Shown: positions 5,036-63,593 of the stretch, in pieces
Position numbering within the stretch: position 1 is the first letter of the stretch
Layout: each line of letters starts with the position of its first letter
Assembly (NCBI GenBank): GCA_020186115.1
Contig: WSYJ01000180.1
Location: forward strand, 186,001-250,000
Direction of reading: 5' to 3'
Length of the DNA: 64,000 nt
Source: Histomonas meleagridis
Lineage: Eukaryota > Parabasalia > Tritrichomonadida > Dientamoebidae
Translations under genes and position numbers: made by a program
Notes under the pieces: model-generated
Database searches by the model: none
Told to the model about the DNA's origin: nothing
The model's input: only the letters and a program-made list of their open reading frames with translations

Positions 5036-8000
5036 ATGAATGAAGAATCCTCAGACAAAAAGCTACTAATAAATTACCTTTTGCAAATAGAACGAATTGT
5101 TTTCAACTTGAATAAAGAAAATATTGAAGCATCAATAAAATCAACATTTGATTATTACAATCCAGACTTTGAATATTCATTTAATCTTATCATTTGTCAA
5201 TTAATATCTTTAGTATTTTGTTCACCAGTAATAAACTTTGATGTATATTTAGAATATATAAAAAGGCTTGAAGGAAAAGAAGATGAAATTATGAAAAATC
5301 AATCATTAAAAATAATTAATTTACTCACACAATACTCCATTAAACAATCTTCATATTTTCTCATACAAAAGTTATATGAACAAAAATTAATTAGTCCTGA
5401 TGTAGTAAAAAATATAGACACAATATATTTTGCTCATTTAAAAACCAAAAAGCAACTCAAGAAATATTTACCTTATATAGAAAAAATACCTGGCTATTTT
5501 ATATATGCAGGTTCTTTTGATCGAGTGTTCTTTGATAATTATGAAGAACTTTCAAAGAATGATTGGGAACTTCATAAACAATATATTAAAGAAGGACATA
5601 ATCCAAATGAAATTGCGAAAATAATTCGAAATGATGAAATCGAAAAACTTCAAGAAATATCATCACAAACAAATTTTGATTTTAATCAAACAATTGAACC
5701 ATCACTTTATGAAAGATGTGATTTTATTAACAATTGGAATGTTTCATTAATTGATTATGCAGCATTTTTTTCTGCAATTAAATGTTTTAAATTCTTATTA
5801 TTAAATGGTGCAAATATACGTAAAACAGGTAAATATGCAGTTGCAGGTGGAAATGAAGAAATTATTCATTTATGTGAACAAAATAATTCATCATTTGATA
5901 AAGCATATAAAGCAGCAATTGAATTTCATCGAAATGATATCTTTAAATATTTATATGAAGATAAAATTAATAAAATTGATAATTTAGAAAATTTCGGAAA
6001 AGAATGTATATTATATAATAACTATGAAATTCTATCATATTTAGAAAAATATTTGGATATTAATGATTCATTAATTAATTTATCTATACAAAAAGGCAAT
6101 TTGTTTCTCACAAAATATTTTCTTGTTGGTAGACAAATTCAAAGTCATGTTTTATTCACAGCTATTGATTCTAAAAACGTAGAACTTTTCAAATTTATAC
6201 TTGAGCAAAAAGGAATAGATATTAATTTTAATAAAAATAGTATAACTAAAACACCGCTTGCGTATGCTTGTGAAGTCGATTGTATTGAAATTGTCGCATT
6301 ACTTCTTGAACAAGAAGGAATTGATATAAAAATTAAAGGTGTTTATTTTTTAATTTTTATATTTGTTTTAAATAAATTATTTTTCATAATTCTATGTGGA
6401 ATTTATTCATATGTTTTGATACATTACTTATGTATTTATCGAGAGAAGGTAATAGTAAAATTATGCAAAAGGTTCTTAATAAAAATGAAATTGATATTAA
6501 TGCTAAGGATATTTATTTGTTTTATTTTTAGATGGTTTAGTTGATTTTGGGCTTTAAAATATTATTTGGAATTGATTCAAATTATTTAGAACAGCTCTTA
6601 TTTTTGCATCTGATTGTGGTCATTCAGATATTGTTAAATTGCTTCTTGAACAAAAAAATATTGAAATCAATATCAAAAATGTTTGATAATTTTCTTTAGA
6701 TTTTATTTTTATGATTTTATCTATTAAAATTTATTATGGAATTTATCCTCTTTTTTCACAGCACTTATATTATCTGTTTTAAATGATCATATTGAGGTCA
6801 CAAAATTACTTCTTGAACATGAAAAAACTGATGTTAATGAAAGAATTGTAAAATTATACTATTTAATGTTTAGCAAAAATTCATAAAATTTTTTGATAAT
6901 ATTTGGAATTTTTTCATATTTATTAAGTCTGCACTATATGTTGCATCTAAAAGACAACGTGTTAAATATGTTGAGTTATTACTTAAACATAAAAAAATTG
7001 ATGTTAATATAAAAAATGTTTATATTTTTCATATAATATTTGATTTTATAAGTTTGGATTTTAAAGTAAAATTTGGAATCTCTTCAGAAGATTTATAACA
7101 TCGCTTATGGTTGCTTCAAAAAATGGTTACATTGAAATTGTCAAGTTACTTCTTGAACATGAAAAAATCGATGTTAATATTAAGAATATTTATTCACTTT
7201 ATTTAAAAAGAATATTTCATAATGATATTTGGAACTTGGTTAAAATATTCAAAACAGCACTTATCTATGCATCGCAATATGGAATGAATGATGTCGTTAA
7301 ATTGCTTCTTGAAAAAGATGGAATCAATGTCAATGATAATACTATTTATTTGTTATATTAAATGTTATTTTTTCAAATATCATATTTCATAAAAACATTT
7401 GGAAATCATTCGAACTATTTTTTACGGCACTTATGTATGCATCGAAAAATGGTTACATTGAAATTGTAAAATTATTACTTGGAAAAGAAGAAATTAATGT
7501 CAACACTCAAAATAATCATTTGTTTTACTTGAATTTTATTTAGAAAATTTAATATTTCGAAATAATATTCGGAAATTATTCAAAATATTGTATACAGCAC
7601 TTATATATGCAACTGAAAATAATCATATAGAAATAGTTAAATTACTTCTTGAACAAAAGCAAATTGATATCAATTCTAAAACTATTTGTTCGTTTTCTAT
7701 AAAACTTGTTTTACTTATTTTATATTTCAAAATGTTTTATGGAAATTATTTAAAATAGTTCGAACAGCACTTATATATGCATCTGAAAATGGTTATATTG
7801 AAATTGTAAAATTACTTGTTGAACAAAAAGGAATTGATATTAATTATAAGAATATTCTTTTATCCGATTGAAAGTTAATATCATTTATAATATGTTTCGA
7901 AATAATATTAGGAATATATTGAAAATATTTATCACAGCATATATGTATGCATCCGAAAAAGGATATAATGAAATTGTTAAATTACTTGATAAACAAAAAG

Positions 8001-8130
8001 GTATAAATAATATCAATGATGAAAATGTATTTTTAAATTCTTTAAAGATATTTCTGATCCTTTATTTTCTTCAATAAATACAATCGAACCTAATAATACT
8101 TATGATGTATTAGAACTATTTAATGAATGA
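5036..8130 (+). CDS. DUF3447-ankyrin repeat protein with interrupted ankyrin modules (gene 1)
   Basis: The uninterrupted 5' part (5036-6340, 435 codons, ATG start) is a classic trichomonad DUF3447 protein. It has a helical N-terminus, the conserved core around residues 170-320 (for example SLYERCDFINNWNVSLIDYA and GGNEEIIHLCEQN), then ankyrin repeats. From 6341 the gene continues as ten intact 30-codon ankyrin modules of the form T-A-L-x-Y-A-S ... L-L-x-E-x-x-x-I-D-x-N-x-K-N. They start at 6421, 6591, 6758, 6928, 7098, 7254, 7424, 7594, 7764 and 7934. Successive modules are separated by spacers of 80, 80, 77, 80, 80, 66, 80, 80, 80 and 80 nt. Most spacers are 2 mod 3 and several hold stops, so the modules cannot be translated as one frame unless spacers are removed or bypassed. 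After the last module, skipping 20 nt (8027-8046) gives a plausible acidic tail DISDPLFSSINTIEPN... ending at TGA 8128-8130. The joined model is my inference; the 5' frame and the modules are direct readings. Confidence 0.6.
6341..8026 (+). repeat. array of ankyrin modules plus ~80-nt spacers (170-bp unit), diverged
   Basis: Ten units follow each other, each a 90-nt ankyrin module preceded by a spacer. The units are well diverged in sequence, yet eight of ten spacers are exactly 80 nt. The spacer starts with RTTTAT-like sequence and ends with a block resembling TTTCAAAATAATATTTGG, whose GG ends exactly 21 nt before the next module in every unit. None of the ten modules contains a stop or indel. 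Confidence 0.85.
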
Positions 8131-21438: not shown

Positions 21439-23939
21439 ATGATGACGAAACTTTGCGACTGGGAAACACTTCTACCGATAAATCAAGCAATTTTTAGTTT
21501 GAATGAAGAAAATTTCTCTAGATCTTTAGGTTTAATAATCAGCAAATTTGATGAAATCCATCCTTTATCTTATGATTTCATGATTATTCAAATTATATAT
21601 TATTCCTTTGTGATTAAAAATAATAAATTGGATTTATTTTTAAATATTATAAAAGAAATAAGAACATTTGAAGAGAATAATAAAATCAAATCTAATATAT
21701 TTGATATATTTGGGCAATTTCTTAATAATAAAAATACAGGTGAATCATCTTATCTTCTTGAAGTTATGATTGAACATAATTTTCTTGAACAAAATATTGT
21801 AAAAAACAATCAGTGTGCTTATTTTGCACATTATATGTCTAAAGATAAATTATCAATTCATTTAAGGGAACATGATTTTGTAAGTGCTTTACCGAATTAT
21901 GAAGAACTTTCAAAGAATGATTGGGAATTACATAAGAAATTAATTATCGAAGGACATAATCCAAATGACATTGCGAAAATAATTCGAAATGATGAAATAG
22001 AAAAACTTCAAGAAATATCATCACAAACAAATTTTGATTTTAATCAATACATTGAACCATCACTTTATGAAAGATGTTCATTTATTAACAATTGGAATGT
22101 TTCATTAATTGATTATGCAGCATTTTTTTCTTCTGTTAAATGTTTTAAATATTTATTTATGAATGGTGCAAATGTAGAAGATACAGGTATATATGCAGTT
22201 GCAGGTGGAAATGAAGAAATCATTCATTTATGTGAACAAAATCATTCATCATTTGAAGATGCATATGAAGCAGCAATTGAATTTCATAGAAATGATATTT
22301 TTCATTATCTTTATGAAAACAAATTAAAAGAAATTAATAATTTAGAAGAATTAGGAAAACTTTGTATTTTATATCATAACTACGAAATATTTTCATTTTT
22401 ACTTAAAGAAGGAATGAAAATTATTGATGATATTATTAATGGAACAGCAATGATTGGAAATATTTTTTTAGTTGAATATTTTCTTAAAGAGCATTCAATT
22501 CCTCATGATATATTGGTATTTTCATCTGGGTCAGGAAATATTGAACTTGTTGAATACGTTTTAAAACAAGAAGGAATTGATATTAATGCTAAAGATATTT
22601 ATTTGTTTTATTTAAAATTTATTTTAATAATTTTATCTTTCAAAATAATATTTGGAAATTATTTAAATTATTTAATACATCACTTATGAATGCATCATCA
22701 AATGGTCATACAGAAATAGTTAAATTACTTCTTGAACAAGAAGGAATTGATATTAATGCTAAAGATATTTATTTGTTTTATTTAAAATTTATTTTAATAA
22801 TTTTATCTTTCAAAATAATATTTGGAAATTATTTAAATTATTTAATACATCACTTATGAATGCATCTGTAAATGGATATACAGAAATAGTTAAATTACTT
22901 CTTGAACAAGAAGGAATTGATATTAATGCTAAAGATAAAATTTATTATAATAATTCAATATTTCAAAATAATATTTGGTAATTATTTAAATTATTTAGAA
23001 CAGCACTTATATGGGCATCTTCAAATGGTCATACAGAAATAGTTAAATTACTTCTTGAACAAGAAGGAATTGATATTAATGCAAAAGATATTTATTTGTT
23101 TTATTTAATGATTATTTTAATAATTTGATATTTCAAAATAATATATGGAAATTATTTAAATTATTTTATACAGCACTTATGTATGCATCTAGAGATGGTC
23201 ATACAGAAATAGTTAAATTACTTCTTGAACAAGAAGGAATTGATATTAATGCTAAAGATATTTATTTGTTTTATTTAAAATTTATTTTAATAATTTCTTA
23301 TTTCAAAATAATATTTGGAAATTATTTAAATTATATAAAACAGCACTTATGAAAGCATCTAGAGATGGTCCTACAGAAATAGTTAAATTACTTCTTGAAC
23401 AAGAAGGAATTGATATTAATGCAAAAGATATTTATTTGTTTTATTTAAAATTTATTATAATAATTTTCTATTTCAAAATATTATTTGGAAATTATTTAAA
23501 TTATTTAATACATCACTTATGAATGCATCATCAAATGGTCATACAGAAATAGTTAAATTACTTCTTGAACAAGAAGGAATTGATATTAATGCTAAAGATA
23601 TTTATTTGTTTTATTTAAAATTTATTTTAATAATTTTATATTTCAAAATAATATTTGGAAATTATTTAAATTATTTAATACATCACTTATGAATGCATCT
23701 GTAAATGGTCATACAGAAATAGTTAAATTACTTCTTGAACAAGAAGGAATTGATATTAATGCTAAAGATATTTATTTGTTTTATTTAAAATTTATTTTAA
23801 TAATTTTATATTTCAAAATAATTTTTGGAAATTATTTAAATTATTTGAAACAGCACTTATTTATGCATCTGTAAATGGTCATACAGAAATAGTTAAATTA
23901 CTTCTTGAACAAGAAGGAATTAATACTAAAAATACTTAG
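21439..23939 (+). CDS. DUF3447-ankyrin repeat protein with interrupted ankyrin modules (gene 2)
   Basis: The 5' part (21439-22596, 386 codons, ATG) is a close paralogue of gene 1; stretches such as NEEIIHLCEQN and FNQYIEPSLYER are nearly identical. From 22597 the gene continues as eight 30-codon ankyrin modules starting at 22677, 22847, 23000, 23170, 23340, 23510, 23680 and 23850. They are separated by spacers of 80, 80, 63, 80, 80, 80, 80 and 80 nt. Because 80 is not a multiple of 3, each spacer shifts the frame. The last module reads cleanly to TAG at 23937-23939, exactly where a module should end. That points to a real joined gene product, with spacers removed before or during translation, or to a very recently expanded pseudogene. 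Modules and frames are observed; the joined product is inferred. Confidence 0.6.
22597..23939 (+). repeat. 170-bp tandem array (80-nt spacer + 90-nt ankyrin module)
   Basis: The word GAAGGAATTGATATTAATGC recurs with an exact 170-bp period (one 153-bp unit). Copies are nearly identical, which implies recent unequal exchange or conversion. Each unit contains a 30-codon open ankyrin module and a spacer beginning ATTTATTTG and containing AATATTTGG. Confidence 0.95.
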
Positions 23940-33881: not shown

Positions 33882-35294
33882 GATAAAAAATTATGAGTGT
33901 GTTAATTGAATTAAACCGCAGAAATTGTTCAAAAGTTAATTTTTGTATGGTTTATATTATTGATAACCGACAGAATTTTTTGGCCAAAATCAATTTCAAA
34001 GGAAATAACTCAAAAATTGACAAAACCGGTCAACTTTTTCAGGCAGTGAATCTAATTCTTGATAAAAATCAAAATATTTCATATATTTGTTGGTTAAACT
34101 AAATAAATATATAAGAATTGAATTTTATTGATTATTTTATTGATGAATATTGGCTCGTATAGAAAATATATGTCAAAACCATTTATGGAATTTGTTTTTT
34201 GACGAGGTCTCAAACGCCGTTTGGTTGTAATTTATTTATGATTCTTTATTGTAATTACAATATTTATTTTTATTAATGTTTTATAGTTTATTCAAAATCT
34301 TCAATCCATTAAAACATCATAAGATATTCTTAATTCAAATATCCGTTATCCAATGAATAAATTTTAATAAGAAATAAAACTGAATTTTGACCTATTTCAT
34401 CGCTTACAAATTCATAATACATGTGAAAATGAATATAAAAATCACGAGTATTATAACTATTTTATGAAAAATCATTTTCATCAGTTACAAAAAATTTTCT
34501 TCGTTTAACATATTAGACTGCGATGAATAGCATGTAGATCAGCATTTCAATATAACATTATTCATAGAGAACATATTTAGTAATATATATTTGATAAATT
34601 TTTTTTCGGAAAAAAATTAATTTTGTAATTTTCTCAATGTACAAGAAAAGTGACAATTGTACCAAGTCTTCAACAAAATTAATATATCAATTTATGTTTC
34701 AAATAGACCCATTGAAGAAAATCACATTTCAAAACGAATTATATATTCATAAATGTATTTTGTTATCAGATATTCATATAAAATATAGAGTATATATTTG
34801 TATTATAAAATTTATTTTTTTTTTATAAATACTGATATTTATAGTAAAGTAATACCCTAATATAAAAAGTATTTAATATTACAACATTTTGTTTCCTTTA
34901 TTATTCTAAAATAAAAAATTAGAAAGAAACAATCACTAAAAAAAGAGGGAAAAATTAAAAATGGAGAAGGGAGAAGAAAAGATAAATGAAAAAGAAAGGA
35001 AAAAAGAAAACTTTGTAATTAAAAATCATTTTGAGAAACTAAAAATAGTATTGATGAGCACATTTTATTTCCATATTAATAATTATAATAAGTATTAATT
35101 CTTAATAATTATTTATTTATATATGATAACTATAGATATTTGTAGAAAAAGTAAATCAAAAATTTCAAATCCACGATATAATTGATTCAATGAATATTAA
35201 ATTTATGAAGTAAAAATGTCATTCCATTAAGCATCTGAAAAAAAAAATTAAATAAGAAAAATTTGGAAAAAAAAGAAAAAAAAAACTTTGTAAT
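33882..35294. other. gene-poor AT-rich region
   Basis: Only short frames with biased composition occur. The longest (33893-34102) starts with GTG and overlaps the C2 gene promoter. No RNA gene or known element is recognised. Confidence 0.45.
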
Positions 35295-35899
<605 letters not shown>

Positions 35900-56688: not shown

Positions 56689-58122
56689 TTAAATGAACAG
56701 TTCTTCGATGTTATTTTCATCAATATCTGAAGCCGAGTCTTTTTCATCATGACTTGATGAGTTATTCTTTTTATCTGAGAATAAATCTTGGCTTGAAATT
56801 ACGTTTTGCTTCTTCTTTCTGATGACAAAGAACGCAATTAAAGCTGCCGCAATGATAACAACAACAACAACAACAACTACAACAACAACAACAATTGTTG
56901 TCGTGTTATCGCTGCTTGGAAGGAAGTATGTGTAGAACTCAACGTACTCATTTTGATATGAGAGAACCATAGTATCTCTGTATTCTACCAAAACTGTGTT
57001 GATGTTAAACCATGTGGAAATGTACGCTTGGCCAACGAGCGATGGGCCAAATGTGGATGTTTGGGTAGAAATCGACTCAGCAACCATTGAATAAGAATAA
57101 ACAATGACACTGGTGAGAATGTAAGACATAGACACAGAGGCACCGAATGGTAAAGAGGCGGAAAATGAATTACTTTGTGTAAATGGATGAGATCCAGTGA
57201 AGGTATTGGATTGAGAGAATGTATTAGATTGTGAGAAGGTATTAGATTGTGAGAAGGTATTAGATTGTGAGAATGTATTGGATTGTGAGAATGTATTAGA
57301 TTGTGAGAATGTATTAGATTGTGAGAATGTATTGGATTGTGAGAATGTATTAGATTGTGAGAAGGTATTAGATTGTGAGAAGGTATTAGATTGTGAGAAG
57401 GTATTAGATTGTGAGAAGGTATTAGATTGTGAGAATGTATTGGACTGAGAATATGTGTTGGATTGTGAAAATGTATTGGACTGAGAATATGTGTTGGATT
57501 GTGAAAATGTATTGGACTGAGAATATGTGTTGGATTGTGAAAATGTATTGGATTGAGAATATGTGTTGGATTGTGAAAATGTATTGGACTGAGAATATGT
57601 GTTGGATTGTGAAAATGTATTGGATTGAGAATACGTGTTGGATTGAGAGAATGTATTGGATTGAGAATACGTGTTGGATTGAGAGAATGTATTGGATTGA
57701 GAATATGTGTTGGATTGTGAAAATGTATTGGACTGAGAATATGTGTTGGATTGTGAAAATGTGTTAGATTGAGAATACGTGTTGGATTGAGAATATGTAT
57801 TAGATTGAGAAAATGTATCTGTCGGATCGCTGGAAGATTCTGTTGTTGAATCACTGGAAGATTCTGTTGTTGAATCACTGGAAGATTCTGTTGTTGAATC
57901 AGTTGTAGTTTCTGGGTCTTGGCCTTCATTTCCTTCATTGTTTGTAAGTTCTTTTAGCCTTGGCTGATGTGCACTATTTAGATTTATACCTTTCAAAAAT
58001 TTGTTGAAATCTATTTTATTATTTAGATCGACTAACCTTGCCTTTAATTTATTGGATTCATTTGATTTTTGTGAATTGGTTTTAAAAAATGTAATTAGGA
58101 TGAGTGTTGGCCAGAACAACAT
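56689..58122 (-). CDS. type I surface protein with TFSQSN/TYSQSN repeats
   Basis: The protein is 477 residues from ATG. MLFWPTLILITFFKTNS is a signal peptide. A short acidic ectodomain and three ~8-residue SSSDSTTE-type repeats come next. A long array of 6-residue repeats TFSQSN and TYSQSN then spans residues ~105-315. A mucin-like stretch and a ~90-residue folded region follow (SYILTSVIVYSYSMVAES ... VEFYTYFLPSSDNTT). A Val-rich TM helix (about 412-435) precedes KKKQ and an acidic cytoplasmic tail. The array is a candidate extended, heavily O-glycosylated stalk. The Ser/Asn stalk is shared with a BspA-like pseudogene at ~43.1 kb. The function is unknown. Confidence 0.85.
   Translation of the reverse strand: MLFWPTLILITFFKTNSQKSNESNKLKARLVDLNNKIDFNKFLKGINLNSAHQPRLKELTNNEGNEGQDPETTTDSTTESSSDSTTESSSDSTTESSSDPTDTFSQSNTYSQSNTYSQSNTFSQSNTYSQSNTFSQSNTYSQSNTFSQSNTYSQSNTFSQSNTYSQSNTFSQSNTYSQSNTFSQSNTYSQSNTFSQSNTYSQSNTFSQSNTYSQSNTFSQSNTYSQSNTFSQSNTFSQSNTFSQSNTFSQSNTFSQSNTFSQSNTFSQSNTFSQSNTFSQSNTFSQSNTFSQSNTFSQSNTFSQSNTFTGSHPFTQSNSFSASLPFGASVSMSYILTSVIVYSYSMVAESISTQTSTFGPSLVGQAYISTWFNINTVLVEYRDTMVLSYQNEYVEFYTYFLPSSDNTTTIVVVVVVVVVVVVIIAAALIAFFVIRKKKQNVISSQDLFSDKKNNSSSHDEKDSASDIDENNIEELFI
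57200..57811 (-). repeat. 18-bp coding minisatellite (TFSQSN / TYSQSN units)
   Basis: About 34 tandem 18-bp units lie in frame with the surface protein gene. The N-terminal part alternates TFSQSN and TYSQSN, giving a 36-bp higher-order unit. The C-terminal part is a homogeneous TFSQSN run. Two expansion phases are implied. The exact copy number may be affected by assembly. Confidence 0.9.
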
Positions 58123-60605: not shown

Positions 60606-63593
60606 TTACTTTTTCCCTTTCCTTTTAACAGAAGCTTTTGATTGTCTCGAAGTTGTTTGAGCGCTTAAATCCGAACTCTGCTGCATGTTAATCAAGCATT
60701 TCATCTTTACCGGCACCTTCTTCATGAACTCTCCGCACTTTAAATTAACAGCTGTCTCGGCCACAACCCATTGGCCAACCTGCAGAAGGCTGGATGCAGT
60801 TGGTGAATATTCGACCTTAACGTGCGCCAAACCGCCGCATTCAATGGCGCACTTTGAAGGGGACACTGTGAAGCCAGGAACTGTTATGGAGTCGAAGAAA
60901 AGCTCGCCATTGGCTTTCCGAACATCGTCGCTTTGATTAGCTACGCCAAAGGTAAGCATAACGGATGAAGTGATTCCAGGATATGACATCTCGCAAATTA
61001 CATTTGGACGAAAATATGGCTCGTCAAGTTGGTAATGATCAAAAGCTGTACGGTGTTGTGGTTCTTCATTACCACCCATGATAAACATAACATATGGCCA
61101 TGAACTTCCATATATTGGAACTTCTCGTTTTTCGCCATTCTCTCCAGCTGATATAACAAGAACGCTTTGGAAAGAGAGGTTATCATGGTCAGGACTAAAA
61201 ACAACAACGACATTACCAGTTTCAGATGGATTTAATCTTTGACATTTTTTATCAATGGTGAATGTTTCTTTGTCGTCCATATTCGTGTGGTGCATCTGTG
61301 GGGTCGGGCGTAGCTCATAAACATATTCAAACGAAAATTCAGCATTATTCTTAATTTGGATTGACTTAGTTATGGATTGACCAACAACAACATGTCCAAA
61401 ATCAAGTACTTCTTGGTTAAGTATAATAGATGGCGATGCACCTTCCCCAATAAGAGTTAGAACACATCGAATGTTTGGTTTATCGGCACACTGAATCACC
61501 ACTTTTGATGTAAACTTTACATTAGCGGTTGGGGTGAACCTGATTCTAATTGGAGTGCCCTGAAGCGGTTTTAATTCTGTAGATGGAGTAAGAACATCAA
61601 AGGAGCCATGCTCAAAGATAAATTCGAGTGGAAGACGACGCTTAACAACACTCTTAATGGTAACAATTGCATCAAGAGATTGTCCTGTTGCAACAACACC
61701 AAAATTTATCTTTGAAAGTGAAAGATCTATAAAATCTTCACTTTTGGTTTCTTTACCACCTACCAATACTTCTGTAACGAACAGCTGTGGAAGGATTGAT
61801 GCACCTTTAAGAAGAAGATGATTTGATCCATTCGATCCATTACAACGCCAGAAACAAGAAACACTTTTTTCATAAGTTTTGTAAGTGAATTCAGGATCAA
61901 TTTGTTGTTTTGGTTCGTGCGCCTCTTCTTTATCTTCTTTTTTTCGATCTCTTAACTTTTTCCTGATCACGCTTTTTGAACTGCTTCTTGATAAAGGAGA
62001 AACGTCACTGTCTGTCCCACTATCAGCTACCCGAAGTGGCACTGTTGGCTTGAATGTAATAAAAACATTTTTGGAAGAATTTGGTGGAATTGTTGATACA
62101 ACTGGATCAAATAAGAAGTCGTCGAATTTACCAAACTCGAACTCGAGCGGTTGATTCTTTTGATTCGTGAGAGTTACTGAATATGATGATTCAGTTCCAA
62201 GAGGTGTAGCTTCAAATAAAATTGATGATTCAGACATTAATAAAGGTGATTGTGTTATGTTTGCCAAACAAGGTATATTGAACTTTTGTCCATTTAGTGT
62301 TGCTAAACTAATTTGGAATTCGTATTTCTTTGGAACTGGCGCTTGAAAAGAGACGTTTACCTCAACGGTTTCGCCGGGTAAAATTAGCCCAAAACCGTCG
62401 AACGGTTGTACCGATACACCTGAAGGTAAACCTATGAAACCGAAGTTACACAAAATCTTCAGATGCGACTTGATTTTAAGGGGAACTTCCTTTGATTCCG
62501 TTGTTATAAATGTGCCAAAATCTATCACTGAAGGTTCAAACGTTAAACGAGAAGATGATGGAGTAAATGTTAAATTTAAAGGAACAGGAAGAACTTGGTT
62601 TGCAATTTCCAATGAGATTGGAAACGAAGCTGTTTGTTCAATTCGTGGGAAATGCTGTTTAAACTTTTTCGTTAGCCTTAGTTTAACACCAATTTGAAGA
62701 GATGATTGAGATCTAATAAATCCAAGTTTTGGAACAAATTCAACATATTTTTCAAGATTTGGAGGTAAGTTAACAATAAATCTATGTGTAATATTACTTC
62801 GATTATGTGCAATGATTGTTGATCTATATAGTTCGTTATAAAGACAAACTCCAAAATCAATTTGATTTGATTCTAAAAATACAGGAACATCAACTCCAAC
62901 GCCTTCCAATGGAAGACTACAAACAAAAGGTTCGAATTCTTTGTGTGATGATGATATTTTGATATTAATAGTAAATTTTAATTGACATGGCTTTTTTGGT
63001 CTGAAAACTACTTTTAATGTGGATTTCCCATAACCATTGACAATGCCATGCCGTGGAGAAAAACGTATAATTCCGTCTTCTGCTTCTTCAAGAGTGAGAA
63101 ATCCAGGATCAACCTTAGTAGAGCCGAGAGAAATAGCCCAAAGAGCAGAAAGAGCTCCGTAGTTTCTTATTGTAAGATTACGTTCTATTTCTTCTCCAAG
63201 TGTAACATTACCAATATTTAAAACATCAAATGGTTCAATTTGAATATTTACAACCTTTGGCAAACATTCGATCTCAACATCGAATGGGCCTGTTTGAGCA
63301 AGAAAATGAAGAGAACATTTGATTTGTGAATTAAATTTTGGTGTGAAATTAAGGGATAGTTCAACAGAAACGCCGGGCGAAACATATCCAGGTGGCTTGC
63401 TGTTTATTTTGAACAATGTTTCATATTCTTTGTCAACTCCAATGACTTTATATGTATTCCTTGAAAATGAAACATTTGTAAGTGTGAATGGAATATTCAT
63501 TGTTTCACCAACTACAAAGTCACGGAAAACCAAAACAGCAGGATCAGAAATAAATGGTGGGCCTTTCTGCGTTTTGGCTTTGCTTAAGAGCAT
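60606..63593 (-). CDS. large ASH/MSP-domain protein, flagellar-type (CFAP-like)
   Basis: A 995-residue protein from ATG (MLLSKAKTQKGPPF). It is built from about seven or eight immunoglobulin-like ASH/MSP beta-sandwich repeats. Typical segments recur: VVGETMNIPFTLTNVSFS, NIGNVTLGEEIERNLTIRNY, IDFGVCLYNELYRSTI, LDFGHVVVGQSITKSIQIKN, together with F.P...F type endings (VVVFSPDHDNL). A charged linker near residues 520-570 is probably flexible. Such arrays occur in HYDIN, CFAP47, CFAP65 and CFAP74, central-apparatus proteins of motile flagella, and trichomonads are multiflagellate. The exact orthologue cannot be named from sequence alone. Confidence 0.8.
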   Translation of the reverse strand: MLLSKAKTQKGPPFISDPAVLVFRDFVVGETMNIPFTLTNVSFSRNTYKVIGVDKEYETLFKINSKPPGYVSPGVSVELSLNFTPKFNSQIKCSLHFLAQTGPFDVEIECLPKVVNIQIEPFDVLNIGNVTLGEEIERNLTIRNYGALSALWAISLGSTKVDPGFLTLEEAEDGIIRFSPRHGIVNGYGKSTLKVVFRPKKPCQLKFTINIKISSSHKEFEPFVCSLPLEGVGVDVPVFLESNQIDFGVCLYNELYRSTIIAHNRSNITHRFIVNLPPNLEKYVEFVPKLGFIRSQSSLQIGVKLRLTKKFKQHFPRIEQTASFPISLEIANQVLPVPLNLTFTPSSSRLTFEPSVIDFGTFITTESKEVPLKIKSHLKILCNFGFIGLPSGVSVQPFDGFGLILPGETVEVNVSFQAPVPKKYEFQISLATLNGQKFNIPCLANITQSPLLMSESSILFEATPLGTESSYSVTLTNQKNQPLEFEFGKFDDFLFDPVVSTIPPNSSKNVFITFKPTVPLRVADSGTDSDVSPLSRSSSKSVIRKKLRDRKKEDKEEAHEPKQQIDPEFTYKTYEKSVSCFWRCNGSNGSNHLLLKGASILPQLFVTEVLVGGKETKSEDFIDLSLSKINFGVVATGQSLDAIVTIKSVVKRRLPLEFIFEHGSFDVLTPSTELKPLQGTPIRIRFTPTANVKFTSKVVIQCADKPNIRCVLTLIGEGASPSIILNQEVLDFGHVVVGQSITKSIQIKNNAEFSFEYVYELRPTPQMHHTNMDDKETFTIDKKCQRLNPSETGNVVVVFSPDHDNLSFQSVLVISAGENGEKREVPIYGSSWPYVMFIMGGNEEPQHRTAFDHYQLDEPYFRPNVICEMSYPGITSSVMLTFGVANQSDDVRKANGELFFDSITVPGFTVSPSKCAIECGGLAHVKVEYSPTASSLLQVGQWVVAETAVNLKCGEFMKKVPVKMKCLINMQQSSDLSAQTTSRQSKASVKRKGKK

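Follow-up and report, generated by a model that had tools for sequence, protein, structure and literature searches.

Two ankyrin-repeat genes of the parabasalid Histomonas meleagridis, both lying in a stretch of 64,000 nucleotides (nt) of contig WSYJ01000180.1 (positions 186,001 to 250,000, forward strand; hereafter the window, with positions counted from its first letter), are interrupted at the hairpins of their repeats by AT-rich elements of 17 nt that stand between single codons. The layout of such a hairpin can be proposed as Asp-[17]-x-[17]-x-[17]-Gly-[17]-x-Thr-Ala-Leu, with one AT-rich element between consecutive codons; since each element is 2 mod 3 in length, a reading frame emerges only if every element is removed or skipped exactly at the codon borders. 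Judged from the sequence, the most likely reading, and one that we consider probable, is that the elements are a non-canonical class of ultra-short introns removed from the RNA. They would be cut out, probably successively, either by a spliceosome with relaxed rules or by another activity, and exons of one codon would be left. RNA removal is judged most likely because tiny introns provide a precedent in length (15-16 nt in Stentor, 16-17 nt in mikrocytids). In more general terms, H. meleagridis is likely to possess some machinery, acting in RNA processing or in decoding, by which ~17-nt elements lacking GT-AG ends or a branch motif are removed or skipped and one-codon exons are joined. To our knowledge, interruption by 17-nt inserts between single codons fits no known kind of gene interruption.

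The first of the two genes, gene 1, carries array 1 and is composed as follows.

5036 to 6340, + strand: head, an uninterrupted open reading frame (ORF) with DUF3447 and ankyrin repeats
6236 to 6250, +: junction without an element, five codons, NSITK
6341 to 6420, +: spacer 1, codons TAT TAT GGA GAT (YYGD)
6341-6357, 6361-6377, 6381-6397 and 6401-6417, +: the four 17-nt elements of spacer 1
6421 to 6510, +: ankyrin module, 30 codons
6511 to 6590, +: spacer 2, four elements, codons LWGR
6591 to 6680, +: ankyrin module, 30 codons
6681 to 6757, +: spacer 3 (77 nt), read by hand as four 17-nt elements and three codons, RYG
6758 to 6847, +: ankyrin module, 30 codons
6848 to 6927, +: spacer 4, four elements, codons NKGK
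6928 to 7017, +: ankyrin module, 30 codons
7018 to 7097, +: spacer 5, four elements, codons NWGI
7098 to 7187, +: ankyrin module, 30 codons
7188 to 7253, +: spacer 6 (66 nt), three elements, five codons, KKNGK; straight read-through is likewise open
7254 to 7343, +: ankyrin module, 30 codons
7344 to 7423, +: spacer 7, four elements, codons NHGF
7424 to 7513, +: ankyrin module, 30 codons
7514 to 7593, +: spacer 8, four elements, codons ENGY
7594 to 7683, +: ankyrin module, 30 codons
7684 to 7763, +: spacer 9, four elements, codons KYGR
7764 to 7853, +: ankyrin module, 30 codons
7854 to 7933, +: spacer 10, four elements, codons KYGI
7934 to 8023, +: last ankyrin module
8027 to 8043, +: candidate 17-nt element, outside a hairpin, preceding the C-terminal tail
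8044 to 8130, +: possible C-terminal tail to a TGA, read in the frame that results if 8027-8043 is skipped

An earlier note on this DNA had described ten intact 30-codon modules separated by spacers of 80, 80, 77, 80, 80, 66, 80, 80, 80 and 80 nt, nine of the ten being 2 mod 3, and a module scan recovered exactly this arrangement. The ten stop-free modules (6421-6510 to 7934-8023) lie downstream of the final complete repeat ahead of spacer 1 (6251-6340), several spacers carry stops in the incoming frame, and the first junction of the gene (6236-6250) holds no 17-nt element. An automatic parse of spacer 3 agrees with the hand reading on the three codons and on the number of elements, four, but lays them out differently. 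In total, 39 element removals would be needed in the hairpins of gene 1, plus a tentative one in the tail. Skipping 8027-8043 would lead into a plausible tail for gene 1, but this is tentative because the element score of the candidate reaches only the 19th percentile among element scores (0.6% of window positions reach that score).

The strongest evidence for the elements comes from the codons that stand between them. The modules alone are short of three ankyrin hairpin residues, which an ankyrin gene without interruptions, elsewhere in this genome, spells contiguously (...D-K-Y-G-R-T-A-L...), while an 80-nt spacer consists of four units of a 17-nt AT-rich element plus one codon, and these codons together give the hairpin motif x-x-Gly-x of ankyrin repeats. 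Array 1 has eight 80-nt spacers, and their codons at offsets 17, 37, 57 and 77 read YYGD, LWGR, NKGK, NWGI, NHGF, ENGY, KYGR and KYGI. Across the 88 unique 80-nt spacers that were read, Gly is the third codon at these offsets in 65, compared with at most one at 20 other offsets, and the best other single position has Gly in 7 of 88. None of the 352 codons at the four offsets is a stop; the Gly count is nevertheless the stronger sign, because offsets 0, 13 and 20 are likewise free of stops. From element composition alone, a stop would be expected in 8.5% of codons and Gly in 0.2%. Spacers of 63 nt, read as three elements and four codons, have Gly where it is predicted in 30 of 35 unique cases (best other position, 4/35) and no stop in 140 codons. 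At the first two hairpin codons TAT or TAC occurs 40 times and TAA or TAG never, and TGG, TGT or TGC occurs 12 times and TGA never, so that the third base ahead of an element looks coding. With the elements taken out, a single frame would be restored whose protein sequence across the junction is conserved, x-x-G-x at a fixed phase.

Two further comparisons point in the same direction. A hairpin profile was built from 17 unique hairpins of an uninterrupted gene of another ankyrin family in the same genome (L078/L085); on the 80-nt spacers it scores +10.5 at the codon phase and -6.0 to -13.5 at offsets 0-16. This gene, with contiguous xxGx hairpins, lies at G000:C39:63500-66000 (L085), and its open frame in L078 extends over at least 1013 codons. 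A second sample of spacers was drawn from 69 of 100 listed rows with no demand for open modules, and it shares some of its members with the first. Of its 60 unique 80-nt spacers, 49 have GGN where it is expected, against at most one at other offsets, and their 180 codons include no stop; four more unique rows omitted from this sample also have GGN at the predicted place.

The codons bear directly on how the spacers might be bridged. The earlier note had proposed an intron, or another form of skipping, at each repeat boundary: the need for skipping stands, whereas the unit turns out to be the 17-nt element, usually four per spacer, each of them followed by a hairpin codon that is kept. Ordinary trichomonad spliceosomal introns of ~80 nt at every repeat boundary would have a size within the type A range (50-196 nt in T. 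vaginalis, according to excerpts of PMC12316389), but removal of whole spacers would delete hairpin codons that appear to be selected, the codon phase contradicts it, and the GTATGTT and CTAACACAYAG signals of ordinary introns are absent from the elements save for one GTATGT in L025; we regard this explanation as very improbable. Whole-spacer introns were accordingly rejected on the codon phase. AT-AC introns of spacer length were rejected as well, as was skipping between direct repeats (TTATTT), which misfits the phase when read by hand.

The elements obey a strict length grammar. Stretches between hairpin codons are nearly always 17 nt long, and 206 unique elements, cut at 17-nt spacing, give the consensus RTTTATTTnnATnATTT with ~91% A+T; all 32 elements in the 80-nt spacers of array 1 are distinct. 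Spacers of n x 20 nt contain n elements and n codons, and those of 63 nt three elements and four codons, the first element being absent in 37 of 42 and the second, third or fourth in the other five. Where an element is absent from a 63-nt spacer the flanking codons adjoin, as in L026, with GAT and GGA adjacent (NDGN). This grammar allows 8 of the 41 lengths between 50 and 90 nt, and 185 of the 208 spacers in that range comply; together with the simulation of stop-free modules described below, it bears out the suspicion that both the modules and the spacer length are constrained. A family with the module sequence TALHIAVRNNN (L009, L011, L013, L016, L020 and L025) has spacers from 40 to 200 nt in 20-nt steps, and each extra element seems to add one hairpin codon; L025, for instance, has ten codons in its spacer of 200 nt.

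Variable spacers also bear on programmed -1 frameshifting, by which each spacer would be translated as a linker with one frame change. In array 2 the incoming and outgoing frames are indeed largely open across the spacer, but a single frame switch is possible in just 105 of 137 out-of-frame spacers, stops occur in 45 of 80 in-frame junctions, and spacers of 40, 60, 80 and 100 nt in one family would require different shifts, which makes this mechanism highly unlikely.

The design is found far beyond gene 1. A search for the same periodicity, suggested in the earlier note, revealed it in array 2 of the window and at other loci of the genome (43.3 Mb in 121 contigs). The first 20 loci fetched were chosen for their ankyrin matches, of which many are broken, and in 17 of these loci spacers of 80, 63, 60, 40, 100 nt and so on separate intact modules; the mostly 87-nt modules of L017, L018 and L019 were missed by the first module scan and picked up by the second. 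Altogether 217 junctions were read in 27 sources, 115 of them of 80 nt and 42 of 63 nt. The exact pattern of one common spacer 3' end has 1,114 genome matches and none for the reversed control, and the pattern of a common pair of module ends placed 52-82 nt apart has 1,018 matches and none for its control, which puts the number of spacers of this design above 1,000; with usually three or four elements each, several thousand elements are estimated. No match to the 3' spacer pattern was found in viral and bacterial/archaeal contigs.

An assembly or sequencing artefact might be suspected since, according to excerpts of PMC8529796, the assembly combines Nanopore with Illumina polishing, and homopolymer indels are plausible for elements of 18 nt. 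Yet the design has more than 1,000 matches in the genome, the 17-nt spacing is fixed over 206 different element sequences, and the listed LRR and WD40 matches lack such breaks: internal stops occur in none of 150 WD40 matches and in one of the LRR matches listed, while by our own count 29 of the Ank_2 matches listed contain one. General assembly error is therefore not the cause, and we give an artefact next to no credence.

The second window gene, gene 2 (21439-23939), carries array 2, with spacers of 80, 80, 63, 80, 80, 80 and 80 nt and an eighth, of 80 nt, at 23770.

21439 to 22596, + strand: head, with DUF3447 and ankyrin
22597 to 23849, +: array, each spacer followed by a module
22597, 22767, 22937 (63 nt, KNGR), 23090, 23260, 23430, 23600 and 23770, +: spacer starts
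23850 to 23939, +: last module, terminated by its own in-frame TAG

Genes 1 and 2 both belong to the ankyrin-repeat protein genes with a DUF3447 head: DUF3447 scores 38.8 and 37.3 bits (Pfam cut-off 26.9) and Ank_2 52.5 and 30.8 bits (cut-off 27.3).

Whether the arrays are still expressed is addressed by their integrity. The module scans gave 392 hits, 121 of them partial, and integrity was judged on the 271 of near full length; 261 of the 271 are intact, 29 of them 87 nt long and thus exactly one codon shorter. When the observed number of changes (7-29 of 90 from the module consensus) was simulated under neutrality, the probability of a stop was 0.37-0.78 per module for the 11 modules of gene 1, and none of 20,000 sets had all 11 stop-free. 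Within the eight 80-nt spacers of array 1, mean p is 0.40 at element positions and 0 at the Gly codon, and it reaches 0.75-0.79 at the last hairpin codon, before Thr, which is a hypervariable surface position of ankyrins. A strange pseudogene array, which the earlier note had entertained, is disfavoured by the sequence: modules and loop codons are stop-free, Gly is kept while the elements have diverged, and broken modules or decayed ends are a minority, so that a loss of coding constraint is not apparent.

A related explanation holds that the arrays are non-expressed relics or a cassette reservoir, whose modules are kept intact because they were amplified recently, undergo gene conversion or serve as donors for other genes. 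The arrays consist of repeats that homogenise, some contain broken modules and decayed final modules, and the ratio of nonsynonymous to synonymous substitutions (dN/dS) is near or above 1 at some loci, all of which this explanation would accommodate. Inherited relics would, however, not be expected to keep single codons, which look selected, while their elements diverge to p = 0.40. Both window genes have intact heads, and in at least 8 of 28 array ends, gene 2 included, the last module runs into a stop of its own frame; the remaining ends continue, are cut by the locus end, or look decayed (L009, L023 and L087). One pattern search for junctions of at most 25 nt in this family returned nine places, four of them in the unrelated C39 gene and five that are not clean element-free copies, which likewise speaks against a reservoir. 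We consider it unlikely.

Translational bypassing, in which the mRNA would keep the elements and the ribosome would jump over each of them, ranks next to removal from the RNA and is, like the relic explanation with which it is on a par, improbable. The elements are short, numerous and frame-breaking, and inserts neutralised at translation have precedents (excerpts of PMC5009743), but ~39 skips per gene would demand near-perfect efficiency. Bypassing with matched take-off and landing codons was rejected, since these match in 6 of 460 cases.

It is important to point out that removal as ultra-short introns also has evidence to contend with, first of all in the splice signals. The absence of canonical trichomonad intron motifs, already remarked upon in the earlier note, holds for the whole set: only one of the 206 unique elements both starts with GT and ends with AG (GT starts, 30; AG ends, 2), CTAAC occurs in none of the 206 nor anywhere in the 217 junctions, and GTATGT is found in none of the 206, a single case starting an element of the L025 200-nt spacer, outside this set. 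A further obstacle is that we know of no precedent for four consecutive introns with 3-nt exons. The length grammar is not universal, for 24 of 216 spacers fall outside the tested form, 14 of them 81 nt long (by eye, the 81-nt spacers read as containing one 18-nt element, often with a longer homopolymer), and the TALHIAVRNNN hairpins often have three codons, without Gly. In the non-array gene L008 (see below), the first apparent element fits the element profile badly (-3.6) and the second is 18 nt long. Among the near-full modules, 8 of 271 are frameshifted and 2 of 271 carry a stop, and the decayed final modules of L009, L023 and L087 indicate that some copies are decaying or misassembled. 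Selection on the modules is not pronounced either: the dN/dS test of modules against spacers that had been suggested gave modest constraint, with ~0.67 between array 1 modules and 0.45 to 1.79 at individual loci; for all pairs of equal length taken together, p is 0.157 in the spacers, compared with a pS of 0.172 and a pN of 0.142 in the modules. Finally, the spacers are related by descent and the arrays homogenise, so that the counts given above are not independent trials and the argument lies in the contrast between phases. Among the eight frameshifted modules are five of 91 nt in L086 with near-identical frameshifts, which suggests that a broken module was amplified along with its array, or else that the copies share an error of assembly.

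Ordinary introns of this genome look different from the elements. They begin with GTATGTT and end with CTAACACAYAG, often with an apparent internal hairpin (by eye), and long introns of this form occur in L030, L035, L049, L053, L055, L057 and others; the combination of the extended 5' motif with the fused branch and 3' motif (GTATGT ... CTAACACAYAG) was not found in the elements. The trichomonad pattern GTATGT, a gap of 10-40 and ACTAACACACAG has no match, because the 3' motif is looser here, CTAACACAYAG. The pattern with this looser motif has 87 matches compared with 25 when reversed, many of them in a satellite. An apparent satellite with a period of ~826 nt, with CTAACACATAG in many units, inflates the motif counts; its places are G000:C9:2518-24247, C84:1707642-1717695, C53:618886-620502 and C55:913585-915242, the sequence having been seen for C9. 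The type B pattern has 17 matches compared with 36 reversed, and two of the 17 look like introns: a candidate short type B intron occurs in the similar loci L059 and L072, as GTATGTTTTTTTTCTAACTCAACAG and a variant with TTAACAG. The genome bears the marks of a spliceosome, with two U2 loci above the family cut-off and one U6-like locus, carrying the ACAGAGA box, just below it (43.7 bits; cut-off 44). In the window, an Rfam scan at gathering scores returned no match.

Single elements seem to occur at the same hairpin in diverged ankyrin genes that contain no array: L003 reads DS[17]SG[17]RSLAHFAA and HMG[17]NG[17]STLL, L004 reads NKFD[17]MTPLHWA, and L008 reads NQK[17]DVYG[18]HTPIDFA. A position-weight scan for elements was run over loci outside the array set, with scores of 8 or more counted as high. 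High scores were obtained for 7 of 112 ORF pairs with a 17-nt frame step and for 3 of 120 with a control frame step. Four of the seven lie in array 2 of the window, two in the ankyrin genes L057 and L073, and one at ~54950 on the minus strand of the window, which is probably due to chance; of the three controls, two lie in the ankyrin locus L003 and were read as element pairs, and one in L007 is unexplained. The scan found no convincing elements outside ankyrin genes, a negative that alone proves little.

Elsewhere, the window contains an AATA microsatellite of about 150 copies (35292-35898), an 18/36-nt tandem repeat (57203-57818) inside an ORF at 56689-58122 on the minus strand, and a flagellar CFAP74/CFAP65/HYDIN-like protein of 995 aa (60606-63593, minus strand).

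The genome paper of H. meleagridis (excerpts of PMC8529796) reports 573 introns, with 5.2-5.7% of genes containing introns and at most one per gene, and an annotation by AUGUSTUS trained on transcripts; its main text makes no mention of the word ankyrin. In the open literature, a scope that leaves most subscription journals and bioRxiv outside, we found no earlier account of 17-nt elements from Histomonas or from trichomonads. If the elements are indeed removed, interruptions can divide a gene down to single codons, and a parabasalid described as intron-poor would harbour thousands of overlooked tiny introns in a large ankyrin family, whose surface positions are strongly variable. Gene predictions for this family would then be wrong, and proteomics against them would miss these proteins. 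Such genes would offer either a natural test of the minimum intron and exon sizes and of the signals that the splicing machinery requires, or a new decoding mechanism.

Several known systems invite comparison. Internal eliminated sequences of ciliates are short AT-rich inserts in coding sequence that are removed exactly, from the DNA of the somatic nucleus; unlike in ciliates, no nuclear dimorphism is known to us in parabasalids. Among introns of the same lineage as Histomonas, the type B introns of Trichomonas are short (23-25 nt in T. vaginalis, in the excerpted descriptions) and T-rich, and sequences with the motifs of both type A and type B are present in the Histomonas genome, but the elements differ from both types in that they have no CTAAC, and AG ends and GTATGT are almost absent from them. 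According to excerpts of PMC12316389, genes of T. vaginalis and T. stableri contain two introns at most, whereas Histomonas gene 1 would have ~40. In length class and narrow length distribution the elements resemble the introns of Stentor (15-16 nt), Mikrocytos (16-17 nt) and chlorarachniophyte nucleomorphs (18-21 nt), and those of Stentor are similarly AT-rich (excerpts of PMC9505925 and PMC10245619). In the same excerpts, however, Stentor introns mostly start with GU and end with AG, as does 1 of 206 Histomonas elements, and the Histomonas elements are found only at ankyrin hairpins (and tentatively in one tail), in series with single codons between them. Bypass elements of phage T4 gene 60 and of Magnusiomyces capitatus mitochondria, with 81 sites, are likewise short, non-coding and frame-breaking between codons (excerpts of PMC5009743), but in Histomonas take-off and landing codons match in just 6 of 460 cases, the genes are nuclear and the element length is almost constant at 17. 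Since the elements fail defining features of both classes that they resemble, they are filed as members of neither.

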